A stretch of DNA of 64,000 nt. Source: Jiangella mangrovi. Its GTDB lineage: Bacteria; Actinomycetota; Actinomycetes; Jiangellales; Jiangellaceae. Both the position numbers and the translations under genes were made by a program. The notes under the pieces were generated by a model. That model did no database searches, was not told the DNA's origin, and saw only the letters and a list, made by a program, of their open reading frames with translations. Location of the stretch: assembly GCF_014204975.1 (NCBI RefSeq), contig NZ_JACHMM010000001.1:4154001-4218000 (forward strand). The letters run 5' to 3'. Positions 23,061-38,668 of the stretch are shown piece after piece; positions within the stretch are counted from its first letter, which is position 1; every line of letters begins with the position of its first letter.

Positions 23061-24704
23061 TTACAGGTCGGCGGACAGGACCTCGGACATGGTCGCGGTG
23101 TCGCCGTCGACCCGGCCGGTCTCCCAGCGGACCCGGGCGGCACCGTCGGTCAGTTCCAGGGTGGCCAGCGCGTTGTCGAACCGCGGGCCGGCGGCGATCC
23201 GCCAGTCGATCGCCGGCCTGGGGATGCGCGCGAGCCGGGCCAGGCCGGAGCCGATCACCCGGGCGACCCCGAAGGCGGCGGCGCCCTGGACGTAGCGCAT
23301 CGTCCGGCTCAGCGGGTTGCGCACGGGCGAGCAGACCAGCTGGTGCACGCGGCTGGTCCGCGACGTCTGGCCCGGGTATCGCACGCGCGCCGCGTAGGAG
23401 TGGTGCACGTCGCCGGAGAGGAAGCTGATGGTCTGCGGCCGCCGCCCGTCGGGGCCGGTCGCGACGTCGGTGACCAGCCGGGCCATCGCGTCGAAGGACC
23501 GCCCGAAGGCGGCCCAGTGCTCGAGGTCGACGGCCTGGCGCAGCTTCTCCGCCGTCCCCGCGAACCGCCGCCCCCACGCACCGGCCGCCGTCGCCTCGTT
23601 CCAGGCCTCGAGGTCGTGCACGCCGCGCGGCAGCAGGTACGGCAGCGACGTGCCGAGGAACAGGTGCTCGACGTGCTCGGTGTCGCGGACCTGCTCGACG
23701 ATCCAGTCCCACTCGTCGTCGTCGACGATGGTCCGCCGTTCCGGGTCGAGTACGCGACCGCAGCGCGAGTCGATCATCACCAGCCGGGCCGGGCCGATGT
23801 CGCGGGTGAAGCTCCACCGGTAGGACGCCGGCTCCTGGTCGGCCTGCCAGGCGAACTCGTCGAGCACCTCGCCGGCGTCGCCGCCGCCGGACCCGGACCC
23901 GGCGGCAGCGAGCACCGCCTTCAGCACCGGGTCCGACGCGCGCTCCGACGGCGACAGGTTGCCGACGTGCTGGTAGATCCAGTACGCCGCGATGCCGCCG
24001 GTGATCCGCTTGCGCCACCACGGCTCCCCCGACATCTGCGACCGCCACGCCTGCGAGGTATTCCAGTCGTCGCGGATGTCGTGGTCGTCGAAGATCATGG
24101 CGGCCGGGACGGTGGACAGCAGCCAGCGCACGGCCGGATCGCTCCACGCCAGCAGGTAGAGGTGCGCGTACTCCTCGAAGTCCGCGACCTCCCACCCGGG
24201 CGCCACGGCCGGGTCGCGTCGCTCAGCGATGAACTCGTGCATCGCCTCCGACGTCTCGTCGGCGTACACCTGGTCGCCCAGCAGCATCAGCCCGTCGGGC
24301 CGCTCGGACTCGTCCGCCGCGGCCAGCCGCAGCGCCAGGGCGCGCAGCGCGTCGGTGCCGTAGATGCGGTCGTGCCGGTCGTCGTGCGGCACGCTCATGC
24401 GGCACGACCCGAACGTCAGCCGCACCCGGCCGTCGCCGCGGGTGCGGATCACCGGCTGCGGGAACGGCCCGTCCGGCTCCGGCCACACCTGCTCGCCGTC
24501 GATCTCGACCGTGTACGGGGTCGAGGTGGCGGGCTCCAGTCCTTCGATCGCGACCAGCGCGTAGTGGTGGCCGTGGACGGTGAACGTCTCGGCGGTGGCG
24601 TCGAGCACGCGGACGGTGGCCGGGCGGGCCGTCTCGACCCAGACCAGGGCCGACGTGCGGTCGACGTGTCGCAGCAGTGGTCCCAGGACGAGGGTGTCCG
24701 GCAC
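23061..24704 (-). CDS. PhoD-like alkaline phosphatase/metallophosphoesterase
   Basis: A 547-residue metallophosphatase with no signal peptide. An N-terminal fibronectin-like part (VPDTLVLGPLLRHVDRTSAL...) precedes the metal site: FGSCRM, LLGDQVYAD, FDDHDIRDDWN and SGDVHHSY near the end. GTG 24704 follows GGGAGG. Such cytoplasmic PhoD-like proteins are common in actinobacteria; the substrate is unknown. Confidence 0.87.
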   Translation of the reverse strand: MPDTLVLGPLLRHVDRTSALVWVETARPATVRVLDATAETFTVHGHHYALVAIEGLEPATSTPYTVEIDGEQVWPEPDGPFPQPVIRTRGDGRVRLTFGSCRMSVPHDDRHDRIYGTDALRALALRLAAADESERPDGLMLLGDQVYADETSEAMHEFIAERRDPAVAPGWEVADFEEYAHLYLLAWSDPAVRWLLSTVPAAMIFDDHDIRDDWNTSQAWRSQMSGEPWWRKRITGGIAAYWIYQHVGNLSPSERASDPVLKAVLAAAGSGSGGGDAGEVLDEFAWQADQEPASYRWSFTRDIGPARLVMIDSRCGRVLDPERRTIVDDDEWDWIVEQVRDTEHVEHLFLGTSLPYLLPRGVHDLEAWNEATAAGAWGRRFAGTAEKLRQAVDLEHWAAFGRSFDAMARLVTDVATGPDGRRPQTISFLSGDVHHSYAARVRYPGQTSRTSRVHQLVCSPVRNPLSRTMRYVQGAAAFGVARVIGSGLARLARIPRPAIDWRIAAGPRFDNALATLELTDGAARVRWETGRVDGDTATMSEVLSADL

Positions 24705-24749
24705 CTGACCTCCCAGGGGGTAGTGAGTGGCAACGTAGGGTGGGACCTC

Positions 24750-25904
24750 GTGCAGTCCGTTTCGTCCGCGTCTGGTCGTACCCTCATCGCCGTCGTCCTC
24801 ACCCTCGTCCTCGCCGCCTGCGGTTCCCGGACCGCGTCGACGGAGGACGACCAGAAGGGCTGGCCCGCCCAGGACGTGATCGCCGCCGACGCCCGCGCGC
24901 TCCCGGGCGTCGACGACGTCACTGTCAAGTATCTGGACCCGGACGGCGAAGAGCACGCCGAACTGCCGGACACGCTCGCCGAGCGAGACGGCTGGACGCT
25001 CCGCCTCGACGTCGTGCACGGCGCCGAGTACGGCGCGGGCTGGGCCGTCGAGGCGATCGACGACCTGCGCGAGGGCCTCCTCGACGGCCGGCCGGAGCCG
25101 ACGGCGCCGCGGCTGGAGGTCTGGCTGCACCCGGTCACGCCGACGGCGTCGGAGATCAGCGTCCGTGCCTACCCGATGGACGACGACGGCGCCCAGCTCC
25201 GTGCCGCGTTCGTCCTCGCCGCGACGCCGGGGGTCGTGCAGGCGGTGTTCGACGGCGAGACGGCGGACGTGCGGGTGGCCGACGCGTCGGACCTCGCGAA
25301 GGTCGCCGACGTCGCGGCCGTCCAGGACACGGGCGTCGACGTCGTCCGGGTCCTCGACGACGACGACGCGGCGCTCGCCATCGCCGACGTGCCGCCCCGG
25401 CCGCCGTACGTCCCGAGCCCGGACCGGCCCGCGAACTGGCCCGCGGACCCGTCGGCGCCGGACTGCGACCCCGCCGACCTGCGGCTCGAGATCACCGGTG
25501 GCGACGCCGCGGCGGGCTCGCGGTACCTCTTCCTCGGCGCGACGAACACCGGCGCCGCCCCGTGCGCGTTGCAGGGCCGCCCGGCGCTGACCTTCCGCAC
25601 GCTCGCCGAGGAGCCGCTGGCGGTCGCCGTCACGCCGTCGACGCTGACACCGGACGTGCCGCGGCTGGTCGTCCCGCCGGGCGCCCGGGCCGCGGCCATG
25701 GTCGACTGGAACGCGATGCCCACCGCCGGCAACCCCGACCTCACCTACGAGGTCGTCCTGGCCCCCTGGGACGGCGCGCCGGCCACCGAGCTGCCGCTGA
25801 CGTCGGGGATCATCGAGGGCCGCGGCCCGCAGACGTACCTCGACATCGTCGACGGCGGCGAGGTCGCGTCCACCGCCTGGCAGCCTGACGGCACACAGTT
25901 CTGA
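24750..25904 (+). CDS. Lipoprotein with DUF4232-like C-terminal domain
   Basis: A secreted lipoprotein of about 384 residues. GTG 24750 gives an N-terminus with Arg, a hydrophobic run and the lipobox LAAC near residue 22. The C-terminal part (CDPADLRLEITGGDA... NTGAAPCALQGRPALTF) is typical of DUF4232 and holds two Cys. The middle is acidic and unassigned. It is divergent from the PhoD-like gene with 45 bases between. Confidence 0.82.
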   Translation: MQSVSSASGRTLIAVVLTLVLAACGSRTASTEDDQKGWPAQDVIAADARALPGVDDVTVKYLDPDGEEHAELPDTLAERDGWTLRLDVVHGAEYGAGWAVEAIDDLREGLLDGRPEPTAPRLEVWLHPVTPTASEISVRAYPMDDDGAQLRAAFVLAATPGVVQAVFDGETADVRVADASDLAKVADVAAVQDTGVDVVRVLDDDDAALAIADVPPRPPYVPSPDRPANWPADPSAPDCDPADLRLEITGGDAAAGSRYLFLGATNTGAAPCALQGRPALTFRTLAEEPLAVAVTPSTLTPDVPRLVVPPGARAAAMVDWNAMPTAGNPDLTYEVVLAPWDGAPATELPLTSGIIEGRGPQTYLDIVDGGEVASTAWQPDGTQF

Positions 25905-25982: not shown

Positions 25983-26822
25983 GTGACCACCGTCGAGCTC
26001 CCCCCGACCGATCTGCTCTCCACCGACGACGTCGCCCGCTTCGCCGAGTCCTTCGCCTGTCTGGCCGATCCCACCCGTGTCCGCCTGCTGCACGCCGTCG
26101 CGACGGCGCCGGGCGGCCGGACCGTGGGCGAGCTGACCGAGCGGCTCGGCATCAGCCAGTCGACCTGTTCCCACCACGTCCGCAAGCTCTCCGACGTCGG
26201 CTTCGTCCACGTCGACAAGCAGGGCCCGTTCAGCCGCATCACCGTCAACGAGGCTTGCATCATCGGGCTGCCGCACATGGCCGACGTCGTCATGGGCGCG
26301 CTGGCCACCCGCCCCCGCCACCCCGAGGACGTCCCCGGCGGCGTCACCGTCCGCGAGCTGCGCCTCGACGACTGGCCGGCCGTACGCCGCATCTACCAGG
26401 AGGGCCTCGACACCGGCATCGCGACGTTCGACACCACCGTCCCGCCGAGCACCCGGCTGGCCGCCCGCTGGCTGCCCGGGCACCGCTGGGTCGCCGAGGC
26501 CGACGGCGCCGTCGTCGGCTGGACGGCGGTCGCCCAGGCGTCGTCGCGCGACTGCTACCGCGGTGTCGGCGAGACGTCGGTGTACGTCGACCGCGCGCAC
26601 CGCGGCCGCGGCGTCGGCAAGGCACTGCTGTTCACGCAGGTCACGGCCGCCGACCGGGCCGGGCTCTGGACCCTGCAGACGTCGGTGTTCAGCGTGAACC
26701 GGGCCGGGCTGTCGCTGCACCACCAGGCCGGCTACCGCACGGTCGGGGTGCGCGAGAAGTTCGCCCAGCGCGACGGCGTCTGGCACGACTGCATCCTCCT
26801 GGAGCGCCGCCGCTCCGGCTGA
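25983..26822 (+). CDS. ArsR HTH-GNAT acetyltransferase fusion
   Basis: A 279-residue two-domain protein. Residues 1-105 form an ArsR winged helix (LADPTRVRLLHAVA... ISQSTCSHHVRKLSDVGFV). Residues 115-279 form a GNAT acetyltransferase of the phosphinothricin/ArsN type (ETSVYVDRAHRGRGVGKALL, the acetyl-CoA loop). Fused ArsR-ArsN-like proteins have been linked to arsinothricin-type or herbicide detoxification; that role is inferred. The GTG at 25983 has no SD. Confidence 0.85.
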   Translation: MTTVELPPTDLLSTDDVARFAESFACLADPTRVRLLHAVATAPGGRTVGELTERLGISQSTCSHHVRKLSDVGFVHVDKQGPFSRITVNEACIIGLPHMADVVMGALATRPRHPEDVPGGVTVRELRLDDWPAVRRIYQEGLDTGIATFDTTVPPSTRLAARWLPGHRWVAEADGAVVGWTAVAQASSRDCYRGVGETSVYVDRAHRGRGVGKALLFTQVTAADRAGLWTLQTSVFSVNRAGLSLHHQAGYRTVGVREKFAQRDGVWHDCILLERRRSG

Positions 26823-26856: not shown

Positions 26857-26885
26857 TTGACGGCATCGTTCAACGATCCTTCAAT
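26857..26885 (+). promoter_or_regulatory. pxpBA promoter with GntR/FCD operator (site 1)
   Basis: A -35 TTGACG (26857-26862), a 17-bp spacer and a -10 TTCAAT (26880-26885). The spacer contains TCGTTCAACGA (26866-26876), which fits the FadR/FCD consensus TNGTNNNACNA. The surrounding TCCTTCAAT matches the other two sites when read in the opposite orientation. Repressor binding here would block RNA polymerase. Confidence 0.72.
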
Positions 26886-26921
26886 AGAGGGACGACCCGG
26901 CGAATGGCGCGAAGGGCCACG

Positions 26922-27563
26922 ATGCCAGCGAACGACCTGCGAGTCCTGCCCTGCGGCGATGCCGCGATCCTGGTCGACCTGGACGACCTCGAGCGCGTGC
27001 TGGCCCTGCACGCCACCCTCACCCAGGAGCCGCCCGCCGGTGTCGTCGACCTCGTCCCGGCCGCCAGCACGCTGCTCGTCGTCTTCGACCCCGCCAGCAC
27101 CACCCGGGCCCGGCTCACCGATGACATCGTCCGCCGCCCGCCGCACACCGCGGCCGCCCGCCCGCGCCCGCTGGTCGAGATCGGTGTGCGCTACGACGGC
27201 GCCGACCTCGACGACGTCGCGGCGCACACCGGGCTGACCCGGGCGGAGGTGGTCCGGCGGCACACGGCGCCGGAGTACACCGTCGCCTTCAACGGCTTCG
27301 CGCCCGGCTTCGCCTACCTCACCGGCATGGACCCGGCGCTGACGGTACCGCGGCGCACCTCGCCGCGCACCCGGGTGCCGGCCGGCTCGGTGGCCGTCGC
27401 CGACCGCTACTCCGGCATCTACCCGCGCCAGGCACCGGGCGGCTGGCAGCTCGTCGGCCACACCGACATCGTTCTCTGGGACCTCGACCGCACACCGCCG
27501 GCACTGCTGCTGCCGGGCACGCGGGTCCGGTTCCTCGACCTCACGGAAGGCGGACCCGAGTGA
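26922..27563 (+). CDS. pxpB: 5-oxoprolinase subunit PxpB (KipI family)
   Basis: A 213-residue subunit of the ATP-dependent 5-oxoprolinase PxpABC, which converts pyroglutamate to glutamate. Family features are the start DLRVLPCGDAAILVDL, the FNGFAPGFAYLTGMD motif near residue 125 and RQAPGGWQLVGHTD near 165. ATG 26922 is preferred over ATG 26904 because GAAGGG lies five bases before it. It is coupled to pxpA by a GTGA overlap and lies downstream of operator site 1. Confidence 0.9.
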   Translation: MPANDLRVLPCGDAAILVDLDDLERVLALHATLTQEPPAGVVDLVPAASTLLVVFDPASTTRARLTDDIVRRPPHTAAARPRPLVEIGVRYDGADLDDVAAHTGLTRAEVVRRHTAPEYTVAFNGFAPGFAYLTGMDPALTVPRRTSPRTRVPAGSVAVADRYSGIYPRQAPGGWQLVGHTDIVLWDLDRTPPALLLPGTRVRFLDLTEGGPE

Positions 27564-28321
27564 CCGACGCCCTCGACCTCAACTGCGACCTCGGCGAGGG
27601 TTTCGGCGCCTGGACGATGGGCGACGACGATGCCCTCCTCGACCTCGTGAGCAGTGCCAACGTCGCCTGCGGCTTCCACGCCGGCGATCCGACGATCATG
27701 CGGACCGTGTGCGAGCGGGCCGGCGCCCGCGGCGTGACGGTGGGGGCGCACGTGGGCTACCAGGACCTCGCCGGGTTCGGCCGCCGGCCCATCGGCATCA
27801 GCGCCGCCGAGCTGACCGACCACGTCCTCTACCAGCTGGCCGCGCTCGACGGCATCGCGCGCAGCACCGGAACCCAGGTCCGCTACGTCAAGCCGCACGG
27901 CGCGCTCTACAACGCCATCGTCCGCGACGCCGACCAGGCCGGCGCCGTCGTCGACGCCGTCCGCAGCTACGACCCGCGGCTGACGATCCTGGGGCTGCCG
28001 GGATCGGAGGTGCTCCGGATCGCCTCGGTCCACGGGGTGCCGACGGCGGCCGAGGCGTTCGGCGACCGCGCCTACCACGCCGACGGCCGGCTCGTGTCGC
28101 GGCAGCGCCCGGGCTCGGTCGTCACGGACCCCGACGAGGTGGCCGAGCGCTGCCTGCGCCTCGCCACGACCGGCGAGGTGGTGAGCATCGAGGGCGACCC
28201 GGTGAAGGTGCGCGCCCGGTCCCTGTGCATCCACGGCGACACCCCGGGCGCCGTCGAGCTGGTGCGCCGGGTCCGCGAGGTGCTGACCGCCCACGGCGTC
28301 GCGATCGCCGCCTTCGCTTGA
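27560..28321 (+). CDS. pxpA: 5-oxoprolinase subunit PxpA (LamB/YcsF family)
   Basis: A 253-residue subunit carrying the LamB/YcsF signature LNCDLGEGFGAWTMGDD at its start, then ACGFHAGDP and VKPHGALYN. It works with PxpB and PxpC. The GTG start overlaps the pxpB stop. A strong hairpin follows before the convergent gene. Confidence 0.93.
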   Translation: MTDALDLNCDLGEGFGAWTMGDDDALLDLVSSANVACGFHAGDPTIMRTVCERAGARGVTVGAHVGYQDLAGFGRRPIGISAAELTDHVLYQLAALDGIARSTGTQVRYVKPHGALYNAIVRDADQAGAVVDAVRSYDPRLTILGLPGSEVLRIASVHGVPTAAEAFGDRAYHADGRLVSRQRPGSVVTDPDEVAERCLRLATTGEVVSIEGDPVKVRARSLCIHGDTPGAVELVRRVREVLTAHGVAIAAFA

Positions 28322-28395: not shown

Positions 28396-30699
28396 TCAGC
28401 GCGGCGGGTCGCCGATGTCGCGGAACGTCTGCATGATCGCCCGGATGCCGAACTGCGCGACCCAGTGCGAGACGTCGTAGCCCAGCTCGGAGTCCTCCAG
28501 CGTCCAGAGATCCGGCCGGCTGACCTGGTAGCGGATCAGGTCGGTGAAGTTGGACCGGTGCTGGACGTTGCCGGTCGCCTCGTAGATGTGCCACAGCGCG
28601 TACGCCCGGCTGAAGTTCAGCGCGTGCGAGTGGTTGCGCACCGGGGCGATCACCGGGTCGATCCAGAGGTCCGACGGGACCCGCTCCTCCACCCAGGCCT
28701 TCAGGGTGGCGGCCGGAACGTCCCAGGTCTGCGCCACCGCGGCGATCCGCATGAGGCACGGCGGGAAGAACTCACGGTGGTCCTGGGTGGTGTCCGCCGA
28801 GACCGGGCAGCGGGTGTCCAGCACGGGGTTGAGCAGGATCCGCTCGGTCTGCTGGTGCACGAACGCCGCCAGCTCCTCGTCGCCGGTGTACTCCGCCCAC
28901 AGCTTCAGGTGGATCAGCGCCCAGGACACGTTCGGGTAGTTGGGCACGAGCACCCGGTCGATCATCTGCTGCGGGGTCAGCCCGGTCACCAGCGTCCGGA
29001 TGCGGGCGACGGCCTCGTCGGCCAGCGGGCGCATGTCGTAGTTCCCCGTGGTCTCCTCGCGCTCCTTCTGGAAGGCCAGGTACCAGGAGAAGCCGTACGG
29101 GTTCTCGCTGTTGGTGATCCGCCCGCGCATGTACGCCAGCTCGGCCGTGATCGACTCCGGGGTGATCTTCGACTGGACGACGTCCAGGTAGCGCTGGTCG
29201 TCGGTGAGGCCGTAGAGCGCCTGCAGCGAGTAGGCGCCGTGGACCGCCGAGTGCCAGTCGTAACAGCCGTCGAAGATCTGGCTGTTGGTGTCGTAGGCGT
29301 CGTTCTGGACGAAGCAGTGCTCGACCGGCTCGATCAGCTGCTCGATCATCTCGACCCGGTCGGCCTGGAAGCCCGCCCAGGAGTTGCGCTCCTGGGTGGC
29401 CTCGGCGGCGGCCTTCACGAGCGCGACGCCCTGGTCGGCGATGTCGTGTCGACGCTGCTGGGTGGCGGGGTCGATGAGCAGGGACCGGTCGCTCGGGTAC
29501 GTCTGCGCCGGCGTGTGCAGGTGCCCGCCCGGCACGTCGGTGGCCCTGAGCCCCAGGCGGACGCGGTTGGACCGGTACATGCTCTCGTTGGACAGGTAGT
29601 TCCCGCCGCCGCCGGAGCGCGCCGCCGACCCCTCCGTCGGGCCGTTGTTGTGGCAGGTCTGGGCGGTCTGCCCGGCCAGCACCTCGCAGATGCGCGGGTT
29701 GAGCTGGACGGCGAACGGCGTCGTCCCGGCCGCCACCATCGCCTCGTGCGGAAGCGTGGTCTCGATGAACTCCGCCGGCTCCGGCATCGGCCAGGTGGCG
29801 ACCTCAGGGACCACCTCCGGCTCACCCTCGTTGTTGTTGTCGTCCGAGCCGCCGCGCCAGCGCCCGGCCCACTGCTCGATGTTGAAGCTGCCGCCCTGGC
29901 TGATCGTCATGATCATGTCGGCGCGCTGCGGGCTGTCCGAGCGCAGGTGCGGGCCGAACGCGTCCTCGACGATGCCCGCGTCGAAGCCGCTCCACGTCAC
30001 CGGCAGGGTCACCGCCTCGATCGCGATGAGTCCCTCGTCGGTCTCGTAGCGCAGCCCGTCGAGCTGCAGCGCCGTCACGCCGGACGGGTTGGACCGCCGC
30101 GGCTCGGTCTGCAGCGTGTACGGGTCGAAACCGCTCACCAGCACCCGGGTGACGTCGGCACCCTCGGGGAAGTCGGTGCTGTCGATGCCGCGGGCGTTGT
30201 AGACGAACGCCTTGATCAGCTCGGCCCGCTCCTCGTCGGAGATCGGGAAGCCGGGGTCCCACTGGCGCAGCGCCCGGGTCGCCGAGAGGTGCGCCCAGTA
30301 GAGCGGGCGGTCGTCGTAGCTGTCGATCCAGCCGAGGCTGGGGCGGCTCGGGCCCTGGGCCCGCTGGATGGCGCTGCGCCACAGCGTCGCGCCGTGCTGC
30401 TCGGCCAGCATGGTGGCCGAGCGCAGGTTGGGCGCGGCGCACAGCTGGGTCGCGAACCGATCGACGTTGCGCTGGAAGCCGCCGGCCGCGAGCAACTGCT
30501 CCGAGGCCGGCGCGGCGCCGGGCACCGTCGGAACGGTCAGCCGCGACTCCTCCACCGTCGCCGGCAGGTCCGTGTCGTAACAGTCAGCCGAGCGTGGTGC
30601 CGCCGTCGCGCCGGGCGCGGCGAGGAGCGCCAGAGCTAGGGCCGAGATCCCGATGACCGAAGCCGCGCTCCGGTATCGCCGTGTCTTGTTCACGGGCAT
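28396..30699 (-). CDS. Secreted pyroglutamyl-peptidase-I-like / DUF2891 fusion
   Basis: An exported protein of about 767 residues. The signal peptide is ASVIGISALALALLAAPGATAAP. About residues 165-430 resemble pyroglutamyl peptidase I: VLVSGFDPY, LPVTWSG, ISQGGSFNIEQ (equivalent of the catalytic Glu region), GNYLSNESMY and PGGHLHTP (His region). In bacterial PCP-I the GxxxCN position holds the catalytic Cys; here it is Ser (YLSN). The C-terminal half is DUF2891, with the hallmark FDGCYDWHSAVHGAYSL. An operator lies upstream. Starts are uncertain: ATG 30699 touches its SD, GTG 30693 has ideal spacing, and GTG 30828 has a strong SD but would bury the signal peptide. Confidence 0.8.
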   Translation of the reverse strand: MPVNKTRRYRSAASVIGISALALALLAAPGATAAPRSADCYDTDLPATVEESRLTVPTVPGAAPASEQLLAAGGFQRNVDRFATQLCAAPNLRSATMLAEQHGATLWRSAIQRAQGPSRPSLGWIDSYDDRPLYWAHLSATRALRQWDPGFPISDEERAELIKAFVYNARGIDSTDFPEGADVTRVLVSGFDPYTLQTEPRRSNPSGVTALQLDGLRYETDEGLIAIEAVTLPVTWSGFDAGIVEDAFGPHLRSDSPQRADMIMTISQGGSFNIEQWAGRWRGGSDDNNNEGEPEVVPEVATWPMPEPAEFIETTLPHEAMVAAGTTPFAVQLNPRICEVLAGQTAQTCHNNGPTEGSAARSGGGGNYLSNESMYRSNRVRLGLRATDVPGGHLHTPAQTYPSDRSLLIDPATQQRRHDIADQGVALVKAAAEATQERNSWAGFQADRVEMIEQLIEPVEHCFVQNDAYDTNSQIFDGCYDWHSAVHGAYSLQALYGLTDDQRYLDVVQSKITPESITAELAYMRGRITNSENPYGFSWYLAFQKEREETTGNYDMRPLADEAVARIRTLVTGLTPQQMIDRVLVPNYPNVSWALIHLKLWAEYTGDEELAAFVHQQTERILLNPVLDTRCPVSADTTQDHREFFPPCLMRIAAVAQTWDVPAATLKAWVEERVPSDLWIDPVIAPVRNHSHALNFSRAYALWHIYEATGNVQHRSNFTDLIRYQVSRPDLWTLEDSELGYDVSHWVAQFGIRAIMQTFRDIGDPPR

Positions 30700-30868: not shown

Positions 30869-30898
30869 ACTGTAGGGGTTGTTGAACAATCCTTCAAT
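30869..30898 (-). promoter_or_regulatory. Promoter with GntR/FCD operator (site 2)
   Basis: Read on the minus strand: -35 TTGAAG, 17-bp spacer, -10 TACAGT. The spacer holds the perfect 11-base element TTGTTCAACAA (30879-30889), which fits TNGTNNNACNA. This drives the secreted pyroglutamyl-peptidase-like gene. Confidence 0.75.
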
Positions 30899-31038: not shown

Positions 31039-31803
31039 TCAGCGGCCGGCCTGCACCGCCTCCAGCTGCGCGAACGCCTCGATGAGCTGCCGCTCGGCGT
31101 CGTTGAGATACTCGTCCAGCGCCCGCTCGGCCAGCTCGATCTGCCCGGCGCGGAGCAGGTCGGCGATCTGGCCGTGCCGCTTCTGGTACGGCGCGTGGAA
31201 CGTCTTCGGCGCGTCCATGATGTGGAAGGCCAGCCGCAGCTCGGCAAGCAGCTGGCGCATGATGTCGTCGATGCGCGGGCTGCCGGCCAGACCGGCGATG
31301 GCCTGGTGGACGTGCATGTTCGCGGTGCCGACGTCGCGCCAGCGCTCCTCGGCCGCGGCGGCCGCACCTTCGGCCAGCGCCGCCTCGAGTCTGGCCATAG
31401 CGCCTGGTGGGGCGTGCGGCGCGTTGCGCAGTGCCGCGGACTCGAGCAGCCGGCGCACCCGGTAGAGGTCGGCGACGTCGGTCGCGTCGAGCACCCGGAC
31501 GAACACCCCCCGGCCCAGCTCGTGCGTGGCCAGCCGCTCGTGCAGGAGCAGCCGGAACGCCTCTCGCAGGGTGTTGCGCGACACCCCGAGCGCCGTGCCG
31601 ATGGCGTCCTCGGACAGCCGCGTCCCCGGTGGCAGCAGCCCTTCGGTGATCCGGGCGCGCAGGATCTCCGCCACCCGCTGGGCAGTACTGGACCGGCCGA
31701 GAGCCGCCCGGTCGACCGCGAGCTCGCCCATCCAGTCCGCTGGCGCGGTCAGCGCCGCCGATGCATCCATGGTCCCCATTTCACCAAGGTTACGCATTCT
31801 CAC
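31039..31803 (-). CDS. GntR-family regulator, FCD subfamily; predicted 5-oxoproline regulon repressor
   Basis: A protein of about 254 residues with an N-terminal GntR winged helix (RITEGLLPPGTRLSEDAIGTALGVSRNTLREAFRLL) and a C-terminal all-helical FCD effector domain with His/Asp metal-site candidates (HVHQAIAG, KRHGQI). Operators fitting the FCD consensus occur at its own divergent promoter, before pxpB and before the secreted peptidase. The effector is probably 5-oxoproline or a related compound (inference). GTG 31803, ATG 31797 and ATG 31779 are alternative starts. Confidence 0.88.
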   Translation of the reverse strand: MRMRNLGEMGTMDASAALTAPADWMGELAVDRAALGRSSTAQRVAEILRARITEGLLPPGTRLSEDAIGTALGVSRNTLREAFRLLLHERLATHELGRGVFVRVLDATDVADLYRVRRLLESAALRNAPHAPPGAMARLEAALAEGAAAAAEERWRDVGTANMHVHQAIAGLAGSPRIDDIMRQLLAELRLAFHIMDAPKTFHAPYQKRHGQIADLLRAGQIELAERALDEYLNDAERQLIEAFAQLEAVQAGR

Positions 31804-31817
31804 AAGCGGATCCAGCT

Positions 31818-31847
31818 ATTGAAGGATCGTTGAACAATCCCTAGAGT
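31818..31847 (+). promoter_or_regulatory. ABC operon promoter with GntR/FCD operator (site 3)
   Basis: -35 TTGAAG (31819-31824), 17-bp spacer, -10 TAGAGT (31842-31847). TCGTTGAACAA (31827-31837) is centred in the spacer. The complement of the left end gives TTCAAT, a possible -10 for gntR on the other strand, so one site may control both directions. Confidence 0.75.
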
Positions 31848-31921: not shown

Positions 31922-33208
31922 ATGCGCAAGTTCACGGTCCTCGTCGCGGCGGTGACGGCGGCGGCCATCCTGTCGAGCTGCGGCGAGGACTCCTCGTCCG
32001 GCGGCGCGGGCGGCTCCGCCGAGGGCGGCGCCGCGGAAGACGTCCGGATCGCCGGGCTGTGGCCGCTCAGCGGCGCCAACGCCACCCAGGGCACCGACGT
32101 CCTGCACGGCGCCGAGCTGGCGGTCGAGATCATCAACGGCGAGTATCCCGACCTGGAACTCCCCCTGGCGGCAGAGGCGGGCCTGCCGGGCCTCGACGGC
32201 GCCCAGCTCGAACTGATCACCGGCGACACCCAGGGCGACCCCGAAGTGGGCGCCAGCGAGGTCGACCGTCTGGTCACCAGCGAGGGCGTGGTCAGCATCC
32301 TCGGCTCGTACCAGTCCGGCGTCACGCTCACCGCGAGCCAGCGGGCCGAGCGCCTGGGCATCCCGTTCGTCAACGGCGCGTCGTCGTCGGTGGCGCTCAC
32401 CGACCGCGGCTTCGAGTGGTTCTTCCGCACCGGCCCGAACGACGAGACGTTCGCCCGCACGATGTTCGAGTACCTGCAGTCGATGCGCGACGCCGGCCAG
32501 GAGGTCGAGACGATCAGCGTCTTCCACAGCAACGACCAGTTCGGCAACGACGGCGCCGCCGTCACCGCCGAGGTGGCCGAGGAGCTGGGCTTCGAGGTCG
32601 TCGGCGACGTCCCGTTCGACCCCGCCGCGGCGGACCTCACCTCGCAGGTCACGCAGGTCCGCTCGCAGGACCCGGACGTGATGTTCGTGCTGGCCTACAC
32701 CGACGGCGCGATCAAGCTCATGCAGACGCTGGACCAGCTCGACTACTACCCGGCGGCGCTGCTCGCCTACGGCAGCGGCTTCGCCGACCCGGCGTTCGTC
32801 ACCGGCCTGGGCGACCTCGCCAACGGGGCGTCGTCGCGGGCGGCGTGGTCGGCCGAGATCGCCCAGCAGCGGCCGGCGGCGGCCACCGTCGCGGAGATGT
32901 TCGAGGCGGAGTACGACGCGCCGATGACGGAGAACTCGGCCCGCTCGTTCACCGCGGTGCTGGCGCTGGCGCAGGCCATCGACGCCGCCGGGTCGACGGA
33001 GCCGGGGGCCATCCGCGACGCCCTGCGCGAACTCGACGTCCCGGCCGAGGAGACGATCATGCCGTGGACCGGGATCAGCTTCGACGACACCGGCCAGAAC
33101 ACCGGCGCGCGCGGGGTCGTCGAGCAGCTGGTCGACGGCGAGTACCGGGTCATCTTCCCGGAGGAGTTCGCGACCGTGGAGCCGACCTGGCCGATGAACG
33201 GGCAGTGA
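31922..33208 (+). CDS. LIV-type ABC transporter substrate-binding lipoprotein
   Basis: A 428-residue lipoprotein with lipobox LSSC near residue 20 and a Ser/Gly linker, then a type I periplasmic-binding fold (IAGLWPLSGANATQGTD..., GAELAVEIING). It captures the substrate, predicted from context to be 5-oxoproline or a pyroglutamyl compound, although the family usually binds branched-chain amino acids or urea. GGAGG lies nine bases upstream of the ATG. First gene of the importer operon. Confidence 0.9.
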   Translation: MRKFTVLVAAVTAAAILSSCGEDSSSGGAGGSAEGGAAEDVRIAGLWPLSGANATQGTDVLHGAELAVEIINGEYPDLELPLAAEAGLPGLDGAQLELITGDTQGDPEVGASEVDRLVTSEGVVSILGSYQSGVTLTASQRAERLGIPFVNGASSSVALTDRGFEWFFRTGPNDETFARTMFEYLQSMRDAGQEVETISVFHSNDQFGNDGAAVTAEVAEELGFEVVGDVPFDPAAADLTSQVTQVRSQDPDVMFVLAYTDGAIKLMQTLDQLDYYPAALLAYGSGFADPAFVTGLGDLANGASSRAAWSAEIAQQRPAAATVAEMFEAEYDAPMTENSARSFTAVLALAQAIDAAGSTEPGAIRDALRELDVPAEETIMPWTGISFDDTGQNTGARGVVEQLVDGEYRVIFPEEFATVEPTWPMNGQ

Positions 33209-33209
33209 C

Positions 33210-34070
33210 GTGACGGACCTGATCCAGGCCGTCGTCAACGGGCTGCTCATCGGTGCGGTGTTCGCCCTGGTCGCGGTCGGCCTGACGCTGATCTACGGCG
33301 TCATGGACGTCATCAACTTCGCCCACGGCGAGATGCTGATGCTCGGCATGTACACGTCGTTCTTCGCGTGGTCGCTGCTCGGGCTGGACCCGTTGCTGTC
33401 GATCCCGATCACCGGCGTGGCGATCGCCCTGACCGGCGCGTTCATGTACTTCACCGCCGTCGGGCGGGTGCTCGGGAAGTCGCCGCTCGCGCAGGTCATG
33501 GTGACGTTCGGGCTGCAGGTGTTCCTGCGCGGCCTGGCCCAGTTCCTGTGGAAGCCCGACACCCGGACGGTCACCGACCCGCTGCTGGGCTCGGTGCGCT
33601 GGGAGATCGGCGGGGTGGTGATCGGCGGGCCGCAGCTGGCGATGGCCATCGGCGCGCTGATCACCACCGGGGCGATCGCCTGGTTCATGAGCCGCACCCG
33701 GCTCGGCGGCGCGATCCGGGCGGCCGGCGAGGACGCCCCGGCGGCCTCGCTCATGGGGATCGACCCGCGCAAGATGTACGCGCTGTGCTGGGTGATCGCC
33801 GGGCTGGTCACCGGGGTGGCCGGCGCGCTGCTGATGAACCGGTACTCCGCCTCGCCCACGGCCGGCGTCATGTTCGTGCTGATGGCGTTCGTCGTCGTGG
33901 CGTTCGGCGGCTTCGGCAGCATCTACGGCGCCGCCATCGCCGGCCTGCTGGTGGGCGTCGCCCAGGGCGTCGTCGGCCTCTACGCCCCGAGCTACACGCT
34001 GGCCGCCGCGCTCGCGCTGTACCTGCTCGTCGTCACCGTCCGGCCACAGGGACTGTTGGGGACCAGATGA
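33210..34070 (+). CDS. LIV-type ABC permease (LivH family)
   Basis: A 286-residue inner-membrane permease with about eight hydrophobic segments and the LivH-type motifs GLTLIYGVMDVINFAHGEML near the start and GIDPRKMYALCWVIAGL in the cytoplasmic loop. The GTG start is one base after the binding-protein stop, and its own stop overlaps the next start. Confidence 0.92.
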   Translation: MTDLIQAVVNGLLIGAVFALVAVGLTLIYGVMDVINFAHGEMLMLGMYTSFFAWSLLGLDPLLSIPITGVAIALTGAFMYFTAVGRVLGKSPLAQVMVTFGLQVFLRGLAQFLWKPDTRTVTDPLLGSVRWEIGGVVIGGPQLAMAIGALITTGAIAWFMSRTRLGGAIRAAGEDAPAASLMGIDPRKMYALCWVIAGLVTGVAGALLMNRYSASPTAGVMFVLMAFVVVAFGGFGSIYGAAIAGLLVGVAQGVVGLYAPSYTLAAALALYLLVVTVRPQGLLGTR

Positions 34071-35125
34071 CCGCACAGACGACTCTCCCGCCGTCCCTCG
34101 CGACGGCCGCACCGCGGCGGCGCCCGCCGGCCGGATGGTGGTCCGCAGCGGCCATCCTCGCCGCGCTGGTGCTGTACCCGCTGGTGTTCACCAGCCCGGC
34201 CGCGCAGAACATCGGCGTGCTCGCCCTGACGTACGCGATCGCGGCGTCGGGGTGGAACGTGCTCGGCGGCTACGCCGGGCAGGTGTCGTTCGGCCACGCG
34301 CTGTTCTTCGGCACCGGCGCCTACACGACGGCGGTGCTGGTCCGGGCCGGGTGGTCGCCCTGGGTGGCGATCGCGGTCTCGATCCCGCTGGCCGGCCTGA
34401 TGGCGGCGTTGGTCGGTCTGCCGTGCTTCCGGCTGCGCCACCACTACTTCTCCATCGCCACCATCGCGTTCGCCGAGATCGCGTTCGTGCTCGTCACCAA
34501 CCTCGACGGCCTCGGCCGGGCCAACGGGCTGGAGCTGCCGATCACCGAGCAGTCGCTGGCCAACCTGCAGTTCTCGCTGCAGGACAAGCGGCCGTACTAC
34601 TACGTGGTGCTCGGGCTCTATCTCCTGGCGGCGCTGGCGATCTGGCTGTTCCTGCGCGGCCGGGCGGGCAGCTACGTCCGGGCGATCCGCGACGACCAGG
34701 TGGCGGCCGCGGCCGTCGGCGTGCCGGTGCAGAGCTTCAAGCTGGCCGCGGCGGCGCTGTCCGGCGCCGTCACGGGGCTGGCCGGCTCGTTCTACGTCCT
34801 GTACGTGCTGTTCGTCGATCCACCGTCGGGTCTGGGCCTGGATCTGTCGGTGTCGTTCGCGCTGATGGCGGTGCTCGGCGGCATCGGCCGGTTCTGGGGG
34901 CCGCTGATCGGCGCCTGGGTCCTGGTGATGGTGCAGGACTACACCCGGGCGGAGTTCTCCGGCACCGGGCGCACCGTCGACCTGCTCATCTACGGCGCGC
35001 TGATCGTCATCATCTCCGTCACCGAGCCGGGCGGCCTGCTCGCGATCGTCCAGCGGGTGCGCGACGCGGTGGGCCGCCGGCTCGCCCGCCGCCGGACCGG
35101 CGACACCGGGGAGGCCACGGCATGA
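34067..35125 (+). CDS. LIV-type ABC permease (LivM family)
   Basis: A 352-residue partner permease. The family motif LGGYAGQVSFGHALFFGTGAYT lies near residue 65 and RAIRDDQVAAAAVGVPV near 205. ATG 34067 overlaps the LivH stop. A longer in-frame reading begins inside LivH and is rejected. Confidence 0.92.
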   Translation: MTAQTTLPPSLATAAPRRRPPAGWWSAAAILAALVLYPLVFTSPAAQNIGVLALTYAIAASGWNVLGGYAGQVSFGHALFFGTGAYTTAVLVRAGWSPWVAIAVSIPLAGLMAALVGLPCFRLRHHYFSIATIAFAEIAFVLVTNLDGLGRANGLELPITEQSLANLQFSLQDKRPYYYVVLGLYLLAALAIWLFLRGRAGSYVRAIRDDQVAAAAVGVPVQSFKLAAAALSGAVTGLAGSFYVLYVLFVDPPSGLGLDLSVSFALMAVLGGIGRFWGPLIGAWVLVMVQDYTRAEFSGTGRTVDLLIYGALIVIISVTEPGGLLAIVQRVRDAVGRRLARRRTGDTGEATA

Positions 35126-35838
35126 GCATTCTCGAGATCCACGAGCTGTCCTGCCGGTTCGGCGGGCTGTGGGCCAACCGCGACATCTCGTTCGAGGTGC
35201 CCGACCACAGCATCGTCGGCCTGATCGGCCCCAACGGCGCCGGTAAGAGCACGCTGTTCTCCATGATCGCCGGGGCGCAGCAGCCGACGTCGGGGAAGCT
35301 GGTCTTCGCCGGCCGCGACGTCACCGGCTGGAGCCCGCACCAGGCCGCGCGGGCCGGGGTCGGGCGCACGTTCCAGCTGATGCGGGTGTTCTCGTCGATG
35401 ACCGTCGCCGAGAACGTCGCGACCGCGGCGCTGGTGCGGCACCGGTCGACGCGCGAGGCCCGCCGGGCGGCGGACGAGGTGCTGGAGCGGCTCGGCCTCG
35501 GCCCGGTCGCCCACACCCAGGCGTCGTCGCTGACCGCGGCCGGGAAGAAACGGCTCGAGATGGCCCGCGCGCTGGCGATCCGGCCCAAGCTGCTGCTGCT
35601 CGACGAGGTGCTCTCGGGCCTCACGCCGACCGAGGCCAACGAAGCTGTGGAGATCGTCCGTTCACTCCGCCGTGACGACGTTACGGTAGTCATGGTGGAA
35701 CACGTCATGGAGATCATCATGCCCCTGTGCGATCGCGTGGTCGTCCTGCATCACGGCCAGAAGCTGTTCGAGGGTGCCCCGCACGACGTGGTCCGCGATG
35801 CCGCGGTGGTCGACGCCTACCTGGGCGAGGCGGTCTGA
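35122..35838 (+). CDS. LIV-type ABC ATP-binding protein (LivG family)
   Basis: A 238-residue ATPase. Walker A is GPNGAGKST near residue 37 and Walker B is LLLLDE near 158. The ABC signature is unusual: LTAAGKKRLE instead of LSxGxxxRLE. ATG 35122 overlaps the previous stop. Confidence 0.92.
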   Translation: MSILEIHELSCRFGGLWANRDISFEVPDHSIVGLIGPNGAGKSTLFSMIAGAQQPTSGKLVFAGRDVTGWSPHQAARAGVGRTFQLMRVFSSMTVAENVATAALVRHRSTREARRAADEVLERLGLGPVAHTQASSLTAAGKKRLEMARALAIRPKLLLLDEVLSGLTPTEANEAVEIVRSLRRDDVTVVMVEHVMEIIMPLCDRVVVLHHGQKLFEGAPHDVVRDAAVVDAYLGEAV

Positions 35839-36542
35839 TGCTGAGCGTCAGCGGGCTCGACCTCGACTACGGCGGCGCGGTCGCCCTGCGCGGCGTCGAC
35901 CTCACGGTCGGCGAGGGCGAGATGGTCGCCCTGGTGGGTGCCAACGGCGCCGGCAAGACGTCGCTGCTCGCGGCGGTCAGCGGCCTGCACCGACCGGTGC
36001 GCGGGCGCATAGACTTCCTGGGCACCGACCTCGCCGCCATGCCCCCGCACCAGGTGTCCCGGCGCGGCATCTCGCTGGTCCCCGAGGGCCGGCGGCTCTT
36101 CGCCCACCAGACGGTGCTGCAGAACCTCATGCTCGGCGCGTACCTCGAGCGCGACGCCGCCGCCAGGGCCGGCGCGCTCGACCGCGTCTACGAGCTCTTC
36201 CCCGTGCTGGCCGAGCGCTCGGGCCAGCGGGCCGGCACGCTCTCCGGCGGCGAGCAGCAGATGGTCGCGCTGGGCCGGGCGCTGATGATGCGGCCGCGGC
36301 TGCTCATGCTCGACGAGCCCTCGCTCGGCATCTCGCCCAAGTACACCCAACTGATCTTCGGCGTGCTGGGCGAGATCCGCCGTCAGGGCACGACGATCCT
36401 GCTGGTCGAGCAGAACCTGCGGGCGGCGCTGAACCTGGCCGACCGCGCCTACGTGCTGCAGACCGGCTCGATCGTGATGTCCGGCCCGGCCGCCGAGCTA
36501 GCGGGGTCGGCCGAGGTCAAGAAGTCGTACCTGGGTCTCTAG
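35838..36542 (+). CDS. LIV-type ABC ATP-binding protein (LivF family)
   Basis: A 234-residue ATPase with Walker A GANGAGKTS, a canonical LSGGEQQ signature, Walker B LLMLDEPS and the LivF-typical SLVPEGRRLF. Its start shares a base with the previous stop (TGATG). pxpC follows 10 bases later. Confidence 0.93.
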   Translation: MLSVSGLDLDYGGAVALRGVDLTVGEGEMVALVGANGAGKTSLLAAVSGLHRPVRGRIDFLGTDLAAMPPHQVSRRGISLVPEGRRLFAHQTVLQNLMLGAYLERDAAARAGALDRVYELFPVLAERSGQRAGTLSGGEQQMVALGRALMMRPRLLMLDEPSLGISPKYTQLIFGVLGEIRRQGTTILLVEQNLRAALNLADRAYVLQTGSIVMSGPAAELAGSAEVKKSYLGL

Positions 36543-36552
36543 AGCCGCTGCG

Positions 36553-37500
36553 TTGATCCTGCCATCCGAACCGCGTCCGGTCGTCGAGGTCCTCCAGCCG
36601 GGCATCCTCGCCCTCGTCGAGGACCTCGGCCGGCCGGGGCTGGCGGCCATGGGCGTCGGGTCATCGGGGGCGGCCGACGGCGACAGCTTGCGGCTGGCGA
36701 ACCGGCTGGTCGGCAACGTCGAGGGCGCGGCGGCCGTCGAGTTCGTGCTGGGCGGGCTGGTGCTGCTGTTCCGGCGGGCGGCGACGGTGGCGCTGACGGG
36801 GGCGCCGGCGGACGTGGGCGTCGGCAGCCGCGGCGCGGCCTTCAACGCGCCGTTCTCGGTCCGGGCCGGCGAGGTGCTGCGGGTCGGCCGGCCGGCGCGC
36901 GGGCTGCGGTCGTACCTGGCGGTGCGCGGCGGGATCGACGTGCCGCCGGTGCTGGGCTCGCGGTCGTGGGACTCGCTGGCCCGCATCGGCCCGCCGCCGC
37001 TGCGTGCGGGGGACCTGCTGCCCGTCGGCGCCGACCACGACGGCGAGCCGTGCGTCGACGTCGCCCCCGTCGCGGCACCCGGCGACGGGGCGACGCTGCG
37101 GGTGGTGCCGGGGCCGCGATCGGACCGGTTCGCCCCGGACGCGCTGGACACGTTGTTCGGGACGGCGTACGAGGTGACGGCCGAGAGCGACCGGGTCGGG
37201 CTCCGGCTGGCCGGGGCGCCGCTGGAGCCGGCCGCGCCGGGGCTGGGCGAGCTGCCACCCGAGGGCATGGTCACCGGGGCGCTGCAGGTCCCGCCGAGCG
37301 GGCGCCCGGTGCTGTTCCTGGCCGACCACCCGGTGACCGGCGGCTACCCCGTCGTCGGCGTGGTGGTGACGGCGGACCTGCCGCTCGCCGCCCAGCTGCG
37401 GCCCGGCGACGAGGTGCGGTTCAGGCCGACTTCTCGCCCCGCTGCCGGCGCCCGGCCTGGCGACCCCGCGGCAGCAGCGTCGGCAGGACGTTCTCGTTGA
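36553..37500 (+). CDS. pxpC: 5-oxoprolinase subunit PxpC (KipA, biotin-dependent carboxyltransferase family)
   Basis: A 315-residue third subunit of 5-oxoprolinase. Family features are [19 protein letters not shown] near residue 11, a conserved G(S/A)[15 protein letters not shown] stretch and [16 protein letters not shown] near 255. It starts with TTG; no better codon lies before the conserved region. The last ~23 residues extend past the usual GDEVRF end and overlap the 3' end of clpX by 80 bases on the other strand. It is separated from pxpBA by the peptidase, regulator and importer genes but shares their control through the importer operon. Confidence 0.9.
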
Positions 37501-38668
37501 CCACGTCACGCGTGATGACCACCCGGGCGACATCGTCGCGCGAGGGCACCTCGTACATCACGTGCAGCAGCACCTCTTCGAGAATGGCCCGCAACCCGCG
37601 CGCGCCCGTGCCGCGCAGCAGCGCCAGGTCCGCGACCGCCTCGATCGCGTCGTCGGTGAACTCCAACTCCACATGGTCCAGCTCGAACAACCGCATGTAC
37701 TGCTTCACCAGCGCGTTGCGCGGCTCGGACAGGATCCGGATCAGCGCCGCCCGGTCCAGCGGCGACACCGTCGTGATGACCGCCAACCGGCCGATGAACT
37801 CCGGGATCAGCCCGAACTTCAGCAGATCCTCCGGCATGACGTCGCGGAACGGGTCCGCGGCCGCGGCCGTGTCCACCGCGACGGGTGCGTCGGCGGCGAA
37901 GCCGAGGCCGCGGCGGCCGGTGCGCGAGCGGATGACGTCCTCGAGCCCGGCGAACGCCCCGGCGACGATGAACAGGACGTTCGACGTGTCGATCTGGATG
38001 AACTCCTGGCCGGGGTGCTTGCGCCCGCCCTGCGGCGGGACGCTGGCGACGGTGCCCTCGAGGATCTTCAGCAGCGCCTGCTGCACACCCTCGCCGGACA
38101 CGTCCCGCGTGATCGACGGGTTCTCGCTCTTACGGGCGATCTTGTCGACCTCGTCGATGTAGATGATGCCGGTCTCGGCCTTCTTCACGTCGTAGTCCGC
38201 GGCCTGGATCAGCTTCAGCAGGATGTTCTCGACATCCTCACCCACATACCCGGCCTCGGTCAGCGCGGTGGCGTCGGCGATGGCGAACGGCACGTTCAGC
38301 ATCTTCGCCAGCGTCTGCGCCAGGTAGGTCTTGCCGCACCCCGTCGGGCCGATGAGCAAGATGTTCGACTTCGACACGGCGACGTCGGACGCGGGAGCGC
38401 GGACCCGCTTGTAGTGGTTGTAGACCGCGACCGCGAGCGACTTCTTCGCGGCATCCTGGCCGACCACGTAGCGGTCGAGGAACTCGTGGATCTCGCGGGG
38501 CTTCGGCGGGTCGACCAGGCCGGCGACGGCGTCGTCCTCGAACTCCTCGGCCATCAGCTCGTTGCAGAGCCCGACGCACTCGTCGCAGATGCAGATCCGC
38601 CCAGGCCCGGCGATCAGCCTCGTCACCTGCTTCTGGGTCTTGCCGCAGAAGGCGCACGTCATCAACAT
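37421..38668 (-). CDS. clpX: ClpX-type ATP-dependent Clp protease ATP-binding subunit
   Basis: A 415-residue AAA+ unfoldase. The N-terminal zinc finger is two CxxC pairs (CAFC, CICDEC) but starts about ten residues shorter than usual. The Walker A GPTGCGKT, Walker [10 protein letters not shown], sensor motifs and C-terminal REVV-like region are intact. The GLGF loop near residue 265, used to dock ClpP, is present. No clpP or tig is nearby, so this may be a second ClpX. It is divergent from a TetR gene. Confidence 0.92.

Follow-up and report, generated by a model that had tools for sequence, protein, structure and literature searches.

Sequence and predicted structure point to an exported serine relative of pyroglutamyl peptidase I, fused to DUF2891, in a putative 5-oxoproline regulon of Jiangella mangrovi

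What could be the role of a protein that carries a pyroglutamyl peptidase I (PCP-I)-like domain with Ser where the catalytic Cys is expected, continues into DUF2891 and apparently leaves the cell? Such a protein of 767 aa is encoded by an open frame on the reverse strand (28396..30699, ATG at 30699, stop codon included) of the window, i.e., the whole 64,000-nucleotide stretch of Jiangella mangrovi DNA analyzed here. In our view, it is probably a serine pyroglutamyl peptidase that is exported and supplies a regulon for the import and hydrolysis of 5-oxoproline. All of its parts lie on the reverse strand. A signal-peptide-like N-terminus (residues 1–34; 30598..30699), recognized from the sequence and its hydrophobic stretch, is followed by a helical N-terminal domain with a DDRPLYW motif (residues 40–180 or thereabouts; 30160..30582), which is seen in the AlphaFold2 model and in its conserved residues. 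The C15-like (PCP-I) core comes next (residues 184–440; 29380..30150; profile search, AlphaFold2 model and structure searches), and the DUF2891 domain closes the protein (residues 474–753; 28441..29280; Pfam and motif comparison). The DUF2891 match is well above the Pfam gathering cut-off (E 9.8e-27; 94.3 bits against 25), which bears out the statement of the first-pass annotation that a C15-like domain is fused to DUF2891. The helical N-terminal domain, which that annotation did not mention, is missing from the classical C15 proteins compared.

This fusion was seen in the J. mangrovi genome only. A genome search with the whole fusion protein returned its own gene as the sole match, no second copy was found in the 22 genomes of the taxonomic family (the order-level search covered the same 22 genomes), and a profile search found no match to the peptidase family in 20 of the 21 other genomes of that taxonomic family. 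Likewise, none of 80 contig loci, the best of at least 591 stretches, held another C15-like/DUF2891 fusion, and none of 51 plasmid records covered 80% of the fusion query. No fusion was found among the class-survey loci either, some of which end within a few hundred bases of the match and could miss one. Within the sensitivity of the tool used, neither domain had a relative on viral contigs, and PHROGs gave no match.

In Pfam, the C15 match of the fusion protein is sub-threshold (E 0.1; 13.1 bits against a gathering cut-off of 22.7), and NCBIfam gave no match to the protein, C15 included. A profile of 14 sequences that includes the fusion protein (A1) finds the solved Pyrococcus PCP-I at E 1.2e-6. 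In the alignments printed by that search, the partners are engineered P. furiosus chains, in which Ser already occupies the nucleophile position, and this second segment scores 4 bits; thus, the Ser-to-Cys correspondence rests on the alignments with classical C15 proteins, in which GNYLSN of the fusion protein aligns with the TYLCN-type segment and Ser370 falls on the nucleophile. In an alignment of 58 rows (A2), made up of the window protein and 57 of the 80 contig loci with near-duplicates omitted, 51 rows matched PF01470 at E ≤ 0.1 and 23 matched one NCBIfam pyroglutamyl-peptidase I model at E ≤ 0.01. Structure prediction, which the first-pass annotation had proposed as a check, was run with AlphaFold2 on residues 40–440 with 58 rows and gave a pLDDT of 96.4 and a pTM of 0.94, and PCP-I rows came first in the structure searches with this model. 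All 14 Foldseek matches at E ≤ 0.001 were PCP-I (identity 15–20%). The best VIA-align row was 5z48_B, a PCP-I with pyroglutamate (Z 20.4, rmsd 3.3, 203 residues, model residues 139–398); rows 1–23 were all PCP-I (Z 16.6–20.4) and the following row had a Z of 10.3. Nucleoside-phosphorylase-like rows at Z ~10 were taken as background. The part before about residue 180, helical and containing DDRPLYW, lies outside the span aligned by the PCP-I rows. The predicted core thus has the C15 fold, in agreement with the PCP-I-like domain first proposed, although an identity to PCP-I of 15–21% across the structure searches counts against our reading.

Comparison of 145 distinct full-length members, window included (160 before repeat removal), revealed that, by alignment, Ser at the nucleophile position is a trait of the family. 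Ser370 (29590..29592, reverse strand) aligns with the Cys of all six classical C15 proteins, each of which has Cys, Glu and His at the three catalytic positions, and the family has Ser in 144 members, Ala in one and Cys in none. An isolated mutation, the alternative against which the first-pass annotation had proposed a survey of homologues, is therefore rejected. Since the catalytic Cys is missing, we place the protein next to C15 as a Ser variant and do not count it as a member. The retention of the Glu and His regions noted earlier also stands, with Glu275 (29875..29877, reverse strand) being Glu in 141 members and Asp in one, and His395 (29515..29517, reverse strand) being His in 142 of 145. 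In addition to these positions, His393 (29521..29523, reverse strand) is family-specific, found in 145/145 members and replaced by Phe in 6/6 classical C15 proteins; Glu372 and, in the helical N-terminal domain, D129, D130, R131 and W135 are likewise found in all 145. The motifs GF[D/E]P[F/Y] and NP[S/A], which we take to have a role in pyroglutamate binding, are largely common to the family and the six classical C15 proteins, and the Gln268 column is kept in 131 of 145 members and in four of the six.

Three members (L163, L167, and L175) have lost both Glu275, with no acidic residue in its place, and His395, while His393 and Glu372 stay; the single Ala for Ser370 is found in one of them. As the three belong to a single taxonomic family, these losses were possibly one event. 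They are divergent and possibly pseudo-enzymes.

The one member with Asp for the triad Glu is from Tenacibaculum. In this member (L018:7197-8981, T. finnmarkense plasmid CP116296.1), the serine-family domain forms the C-terminal part of a 594-aa protein. The gene belongs to a type VI secretion locus, where it immediately follows a VgrG/phage-baseplate-V gene and is overlapped at its end by a small gene. Polymorphic toxins with pyroglutamyl-peptidase domains have been listed in the literature (PMC3482391).

The relatives were collected by a scan of genome contigs that gave at least 591 stretches encoding relatives, of which the best 80 were kept. Sampling bias from the DNA pattern was considered and rejected, as 13 of the 80 loci were reachable solely via DDR[PM]LYWA and all 13 have Ser. 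In a profile-based survey of the class, 52 of 393 genomes, counting that of the window, carried the family, and of the 59 genes surveyed 58 have Ser and one Ala. In the phylum of one Bacillota member, the family was found in that genome alone among 398, so the serine family is rare in that phylum; weak matches in five other genomes of the phylum were classical C15 proteins with TYLCN-type segments.

Export of the fusion protein is suggested by its sequence. The first-pass annotation had called it exported, and a hydrophobicity test found its N-terminus indeed signal-like, with the hydrophobic stretch VIGISALALALL. A crude hydrophobicity test on open frames found such a stretch in 121 of 142 members; the 21 members without it (L163 and L167 among them by the same crude test; three further members were too short) speak against our reading. 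Cysteines tend to occur in pairs. At positions 40 and 87, 76 of 104 rows have both, 27 neither and one a single Cys, and in the 335–353 segment 48 of the 145 members have two, 96 none and one a single Cys. This pairing suggests disulfides and fits an oxidizing compartment. The pairing would also give the family a reason to avoid a free catalytic Cys.

The genes around the fusion gene are tied together by an operator, TYGTTSAACRATCCTTCAAT, which the 7.16-Mb genome contains three times without a mismatch, each time at this locus. The three perfect copies were located by genome motif search upstream of pxpB (26866..26885, forward strand), upstream of the fusion gene (30879..30898, forward strand) and between gntR and the ABC transporter genes (31818..31837, reverse strand). 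No copy with one or two mismatches exists in the genome, and two sites elsewhere have three; the shared operator reported at first pass is thereby corroborated. Chance as its origin was rejected by the genome-wide copy count and by shuffles. Pfam, the neighborhood and the operator identify a GntR/FCD regulator, PxpR-like by context (31039..31803, reverse strand), and all of the following genes are on the forward strand. They encode the 5-oxoprolinase subunits PxpB (CT_C_D; 26904..27563), at 143.5 bits just below the NCBIfam PxpB cut-off of 145.55 and also a weak match to the urea carboxylase model (E 1e-5), and PxpA (LamB_YcsF; 27560..28321; Pfam and NCBIfam). Beyond the regulator lie genes for an ABC transporter substrate-binding protein of the branched-chain amino acid type (31922..33208; Pfam and NCBIfam), a LivH-like permease (33210..34070; Pfam), a LivM-like permease (34076..35125), a LivG-like ATPase (35122..35838) and a second, LivF-like ATPase (open frame 35727..36542, whose true start is probably further in). 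PxpC (CT_A_B; 36553..37500), the genome's only CT_A_B match and unmentioned in the first-pass annotation, closes the transporter run and makes PxpABC complete at the locus. The name PxpABC reportedly goes back to a paper of 2017. With a GntR regulator and complete PxpABC sharing one operator, the locus has, as judged from its sequence, the layout of a PxpR-type 5-oxoproline regulon, the operator being the predicted binding site. By phmmer, the 64-kb window has no match to DUF969, DUF979 or Pcp, and no classical C15 protein was matched in the genome itself or in the 11 other genus members searched; in the same search, one of 21 genomes had such a match.

Near these genes, the window also encodes an ArsR-type regulator fused to an ArsN1-like GNAT acetyltransferase (25983-26822, forward strand; 136.1 bits against an NCBIfam cut-off of 170), a PhoD-like phosphatase with DUF7800 (23061-25088, reverse strand) and a ClpX-like ATPase with a C4 zinc finger (37421-38668, reverse strand; 415-aa open frame), convergent with PxpC.

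Linkage to Pxp genes recurs among the relatives. Within the best 80 of at least 591 stretches, PxpA lies within 10 kb at 22 of the 80 loci and any Pxp gene at 25, some loci ending early at contig ends. One Plantactinospora locus (L020) unites GntR, PxpA, the serine peptidase, the substrate-binding protein, LivH, PxpB and PxpC in a single stretch and has no DUF2891. The operator core, allowing up to three mismatches, occurs within 400 bp of either end of the GntR homologue at 16 of 18 loci that have one and anywhere at one of the 62 loci that do not; at L088, the best site listed falls inside the regulator gene. Many of the 18 loci are from Lentzea and its close kin and are therefore not independent. 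In a tree of 66 rows, for which the method gave a warning on the long rows L015–L018, the Pxp-linked rows all group into a single clade with a support of 100/99, where they account for 19 of 38 rows, counting the window. None of the 28 rows outside the clade is Pxp-linked (in three of these, linkage would scarcely show, as less than 5 kb of sequence was available), and the members on Streptomyces, Kitasatospora and Tsukamurella plasmids have other neighbors. Both observations weigh against our reading, and the role of the family outside the Pxp-linked clade may differ.

The first-pass annotation regarded this locus as the first functional context for DUF2891. That claim does not hold, for in some genomes DUF2891 is already grouped with Pcp, DUF969, DUF979 and PxpABC, with the order DUF969-DUF979-Pcp-DUF2891 beside PxpABC. 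In regions from 20 of the 26 genomes of the class with a DUF2891 match, DUF979 adjoins DUF2891 in nine, Pcp lies directly upstream in six and a Pxp gene is near in eight, although 11 show no DUF979, Pcp or Pxp within up to ~6 kb, which is a point against our reading. Two of four plasmid DUF2891 regions have the DUF969-DUF979 neighborhood and two do not; this neighborhood, common and not defining, is absent around the fusion gene in the window. In one cluster of the class (L224), the window regulator has a homologue of the GntR/FCD type (E 6e-75), and two sites resembling the operator occur there, each with three mismatches. One publication mentions DUF2891 alongside DUF969 and DUF979 in C. jejuni and reports the suggestion that the latter two form a 5-oxoproline transporter (PMC12795558), and table rows of another show the DUF2891 grouping as well (PMC10040529). 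The DUF2891 protein CJ0554 has a solved structure (PDB 8ieu/8iev), for which our literature search found no paper; our own DUF2891 model, folded without relatives, was poor (pLDDT 48). A second, stand-alone DUF2891 protein, whose region counts among those 11, is encoded elsewhere in the same genome (G000:C1:2969540-2970511, L211) with no Pxp, DUF979 or Pcp gene within ~6 kb, and DUF2891 was matched in eight of 11 other genus genomes. What is new for DUF2891 here is the covalent link together with the apparent export.

How might these components work together? The protein would be an exported serine-nucleophile relative of PCP-I, and outside the cell its Ser370-His395-Glu275 triad would cut N-terminal pyroglutamate off peptides. 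The freed 5-oxoproline would enter via the branched-chain-type ABC transporter and be hydrolyzed to glutamate by PxpABC, and the PxpR-like GntR/FCD regulator would control all of these genes via the one operator until 5-oxoproline releases it. The exported peptidase may thus replace Pcp, and the ABC transporter may replace DUF969/979; the DUF2891 domain would stand in for the free DUF2891 protein that follows Pcp in certain ordinary clusters for 5-oxoproline. If DUF2891 lies outside the cell, it would have to work independently of ATP and NAD and is therefore most likely a binding or hydrolase/isomerase module, which would act on pyroglutamyl peptides or pyroglutamate. The generic type of the transporter is a point against this reading, as is the lack, to our knowledge, of any known activity for a member of the serine family.

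A further point against it is that cysteine peptidases usually lose their activity when the catalytic Cys is changed to Ser. Ser at the nucleophile could also mean that the C15 domain is catalytically dead and just binds pyroglutamyl peptides, e.g., capturing them on behalf of DUF2891 or the transporter. The retained pocket motifs and the C15 crystal structure that P. furiosus PCP-I still gives without cysteines (1ioi) would both suit a binding domain. The conservation of Glu (141/145) and His (142/145) argues against it, because their joint loss in the same three members is expected of a working triad and not of a binding pocket, and we hold a dead domain to be unlikely. A metal-dependent hydrolase that uses His393, His395 and Glu372 with no Ser triad accounts for the near-invariance of these residues (145, 142 and 145 of 145, respectively). 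However, His393 and Glu372 remain in the three members in which His395 and Glu275 are lost, which is inconsistent with one metal site, and we do not know of C15 as a metal fold, so that this explanation is highly improbable.

The enzyme could instead be an active serine hydrolase for another substrate with a lactam, N-acyl or amide bond, the product of which is handled by a PxpABC-type enzyme. The family-specific His393, Glu372, and Arg376 and the separate N-terminal domain are compatible with such a change, and carboxyltransferase-type subunits serve other enzymes too, the window's PxpB matching urea carboxylase weakly and falling short of the PxpB cut-off. The resemblance of GF[D/E]P[F/Y], NP[S/A] and the Gln268 column to C15 and the position of DUF2891 behind Pcp and beside PxpABC in six of 20 regions argue against another substrate, which we consider quite unlikely. 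We therefore retain the reading of an exported serine pyroglutamyl peptidase that supplies the 5-oxoproline regulon.

According to passages of PMC12445089, clan CF comprises one family with a Glu-Cys-His triad. Among open-licence papers, we found none that pairs a pyroglutamyl peptidase with a serine nucleophile. On balance, we lean toward a second branch of clan CF, a broad family of serine pyroglutamyl peptidases, mostly exported, with an additional N-terminal domain and cysteines paired in disulfides. On leaving the cytoplasm, this family would have exchanged a Cys prone to oxidation for Ser; in J. mangrovi it is joined to DUF2891, which would thereby become a partner in harvesting pyroglutamate that needs neither ATP nor NAD. 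If so, the whole Ser family, whose members are annotated as "pyroglutamyl peptidase" or hypothetical, would represent a natural Cys-to-Ser peptidase switch that can be tested with the standard substrate. The regulon would turn the harvesting of extracellular pyroglutamate into a concrete pathway, and the fusion would provide a covalent handle on DUF2891, whose function should operate extracellularly beside a pyroglutamyl peptidase.

Among the known systems, PMC13274462 describes PxpR of C. glutamicum as a 5-oxoproline-binding regulator of the GntR type that represses pxpTABC. Both loci combine a GntR-type regulator with PxpABC; in that description the transporter is the secondary transporter PxpT and no peptidase is mentioned (PMC13274462), whereas the window has an ABC transporter. 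"Pyroglutamyl peptidase" genes on Streptomyces and Kitasatospora plasmids belong to the same family as the fusion protein, with Ser and the same architecture in the first 440 residues. The gene beside blaOXA-436 on the Enterobacter plasmid pOXA436 (L017:7905-9062) is also of the serine family and shares this architecture. Judging from its position, it would be the "peptidase C15" gene reported beside OXA-48-like genes in Shewanella in parts of two publications (PMC3480492; PMC9604219). Unlike the fusion gene, the Streptomyces and Kitasatospora plasmid genes and the blaOXA-436 neighbor have no DUF2891 or Pxp gene in the stretches seen. With pyroglutamyl peptidase I (MEROPS C15, clan CF, PF01470), the fusion protein shares the predicted fold, the Glu and His positions and the motifs GF[D/E]P[F/Y] and NP[S/A], and Pcp too can adjoin PxpABC. 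It differs in having Ser for Cys, His393 for Phe, a signal-like peptide, an extra N-terminal domain, a sub-threshold Pfam match and ~400 aa before DUF2891, as compared to ~210 aa in solved PCP-I. With DUF2891 (PF11199; CJ0554), it has in common the domain profile and two motifs, DWHSxVH and HW; at the other DUF2891 loci seen, the domain stands alone, whereas here it follows a peptidase and a signal-like peptide.
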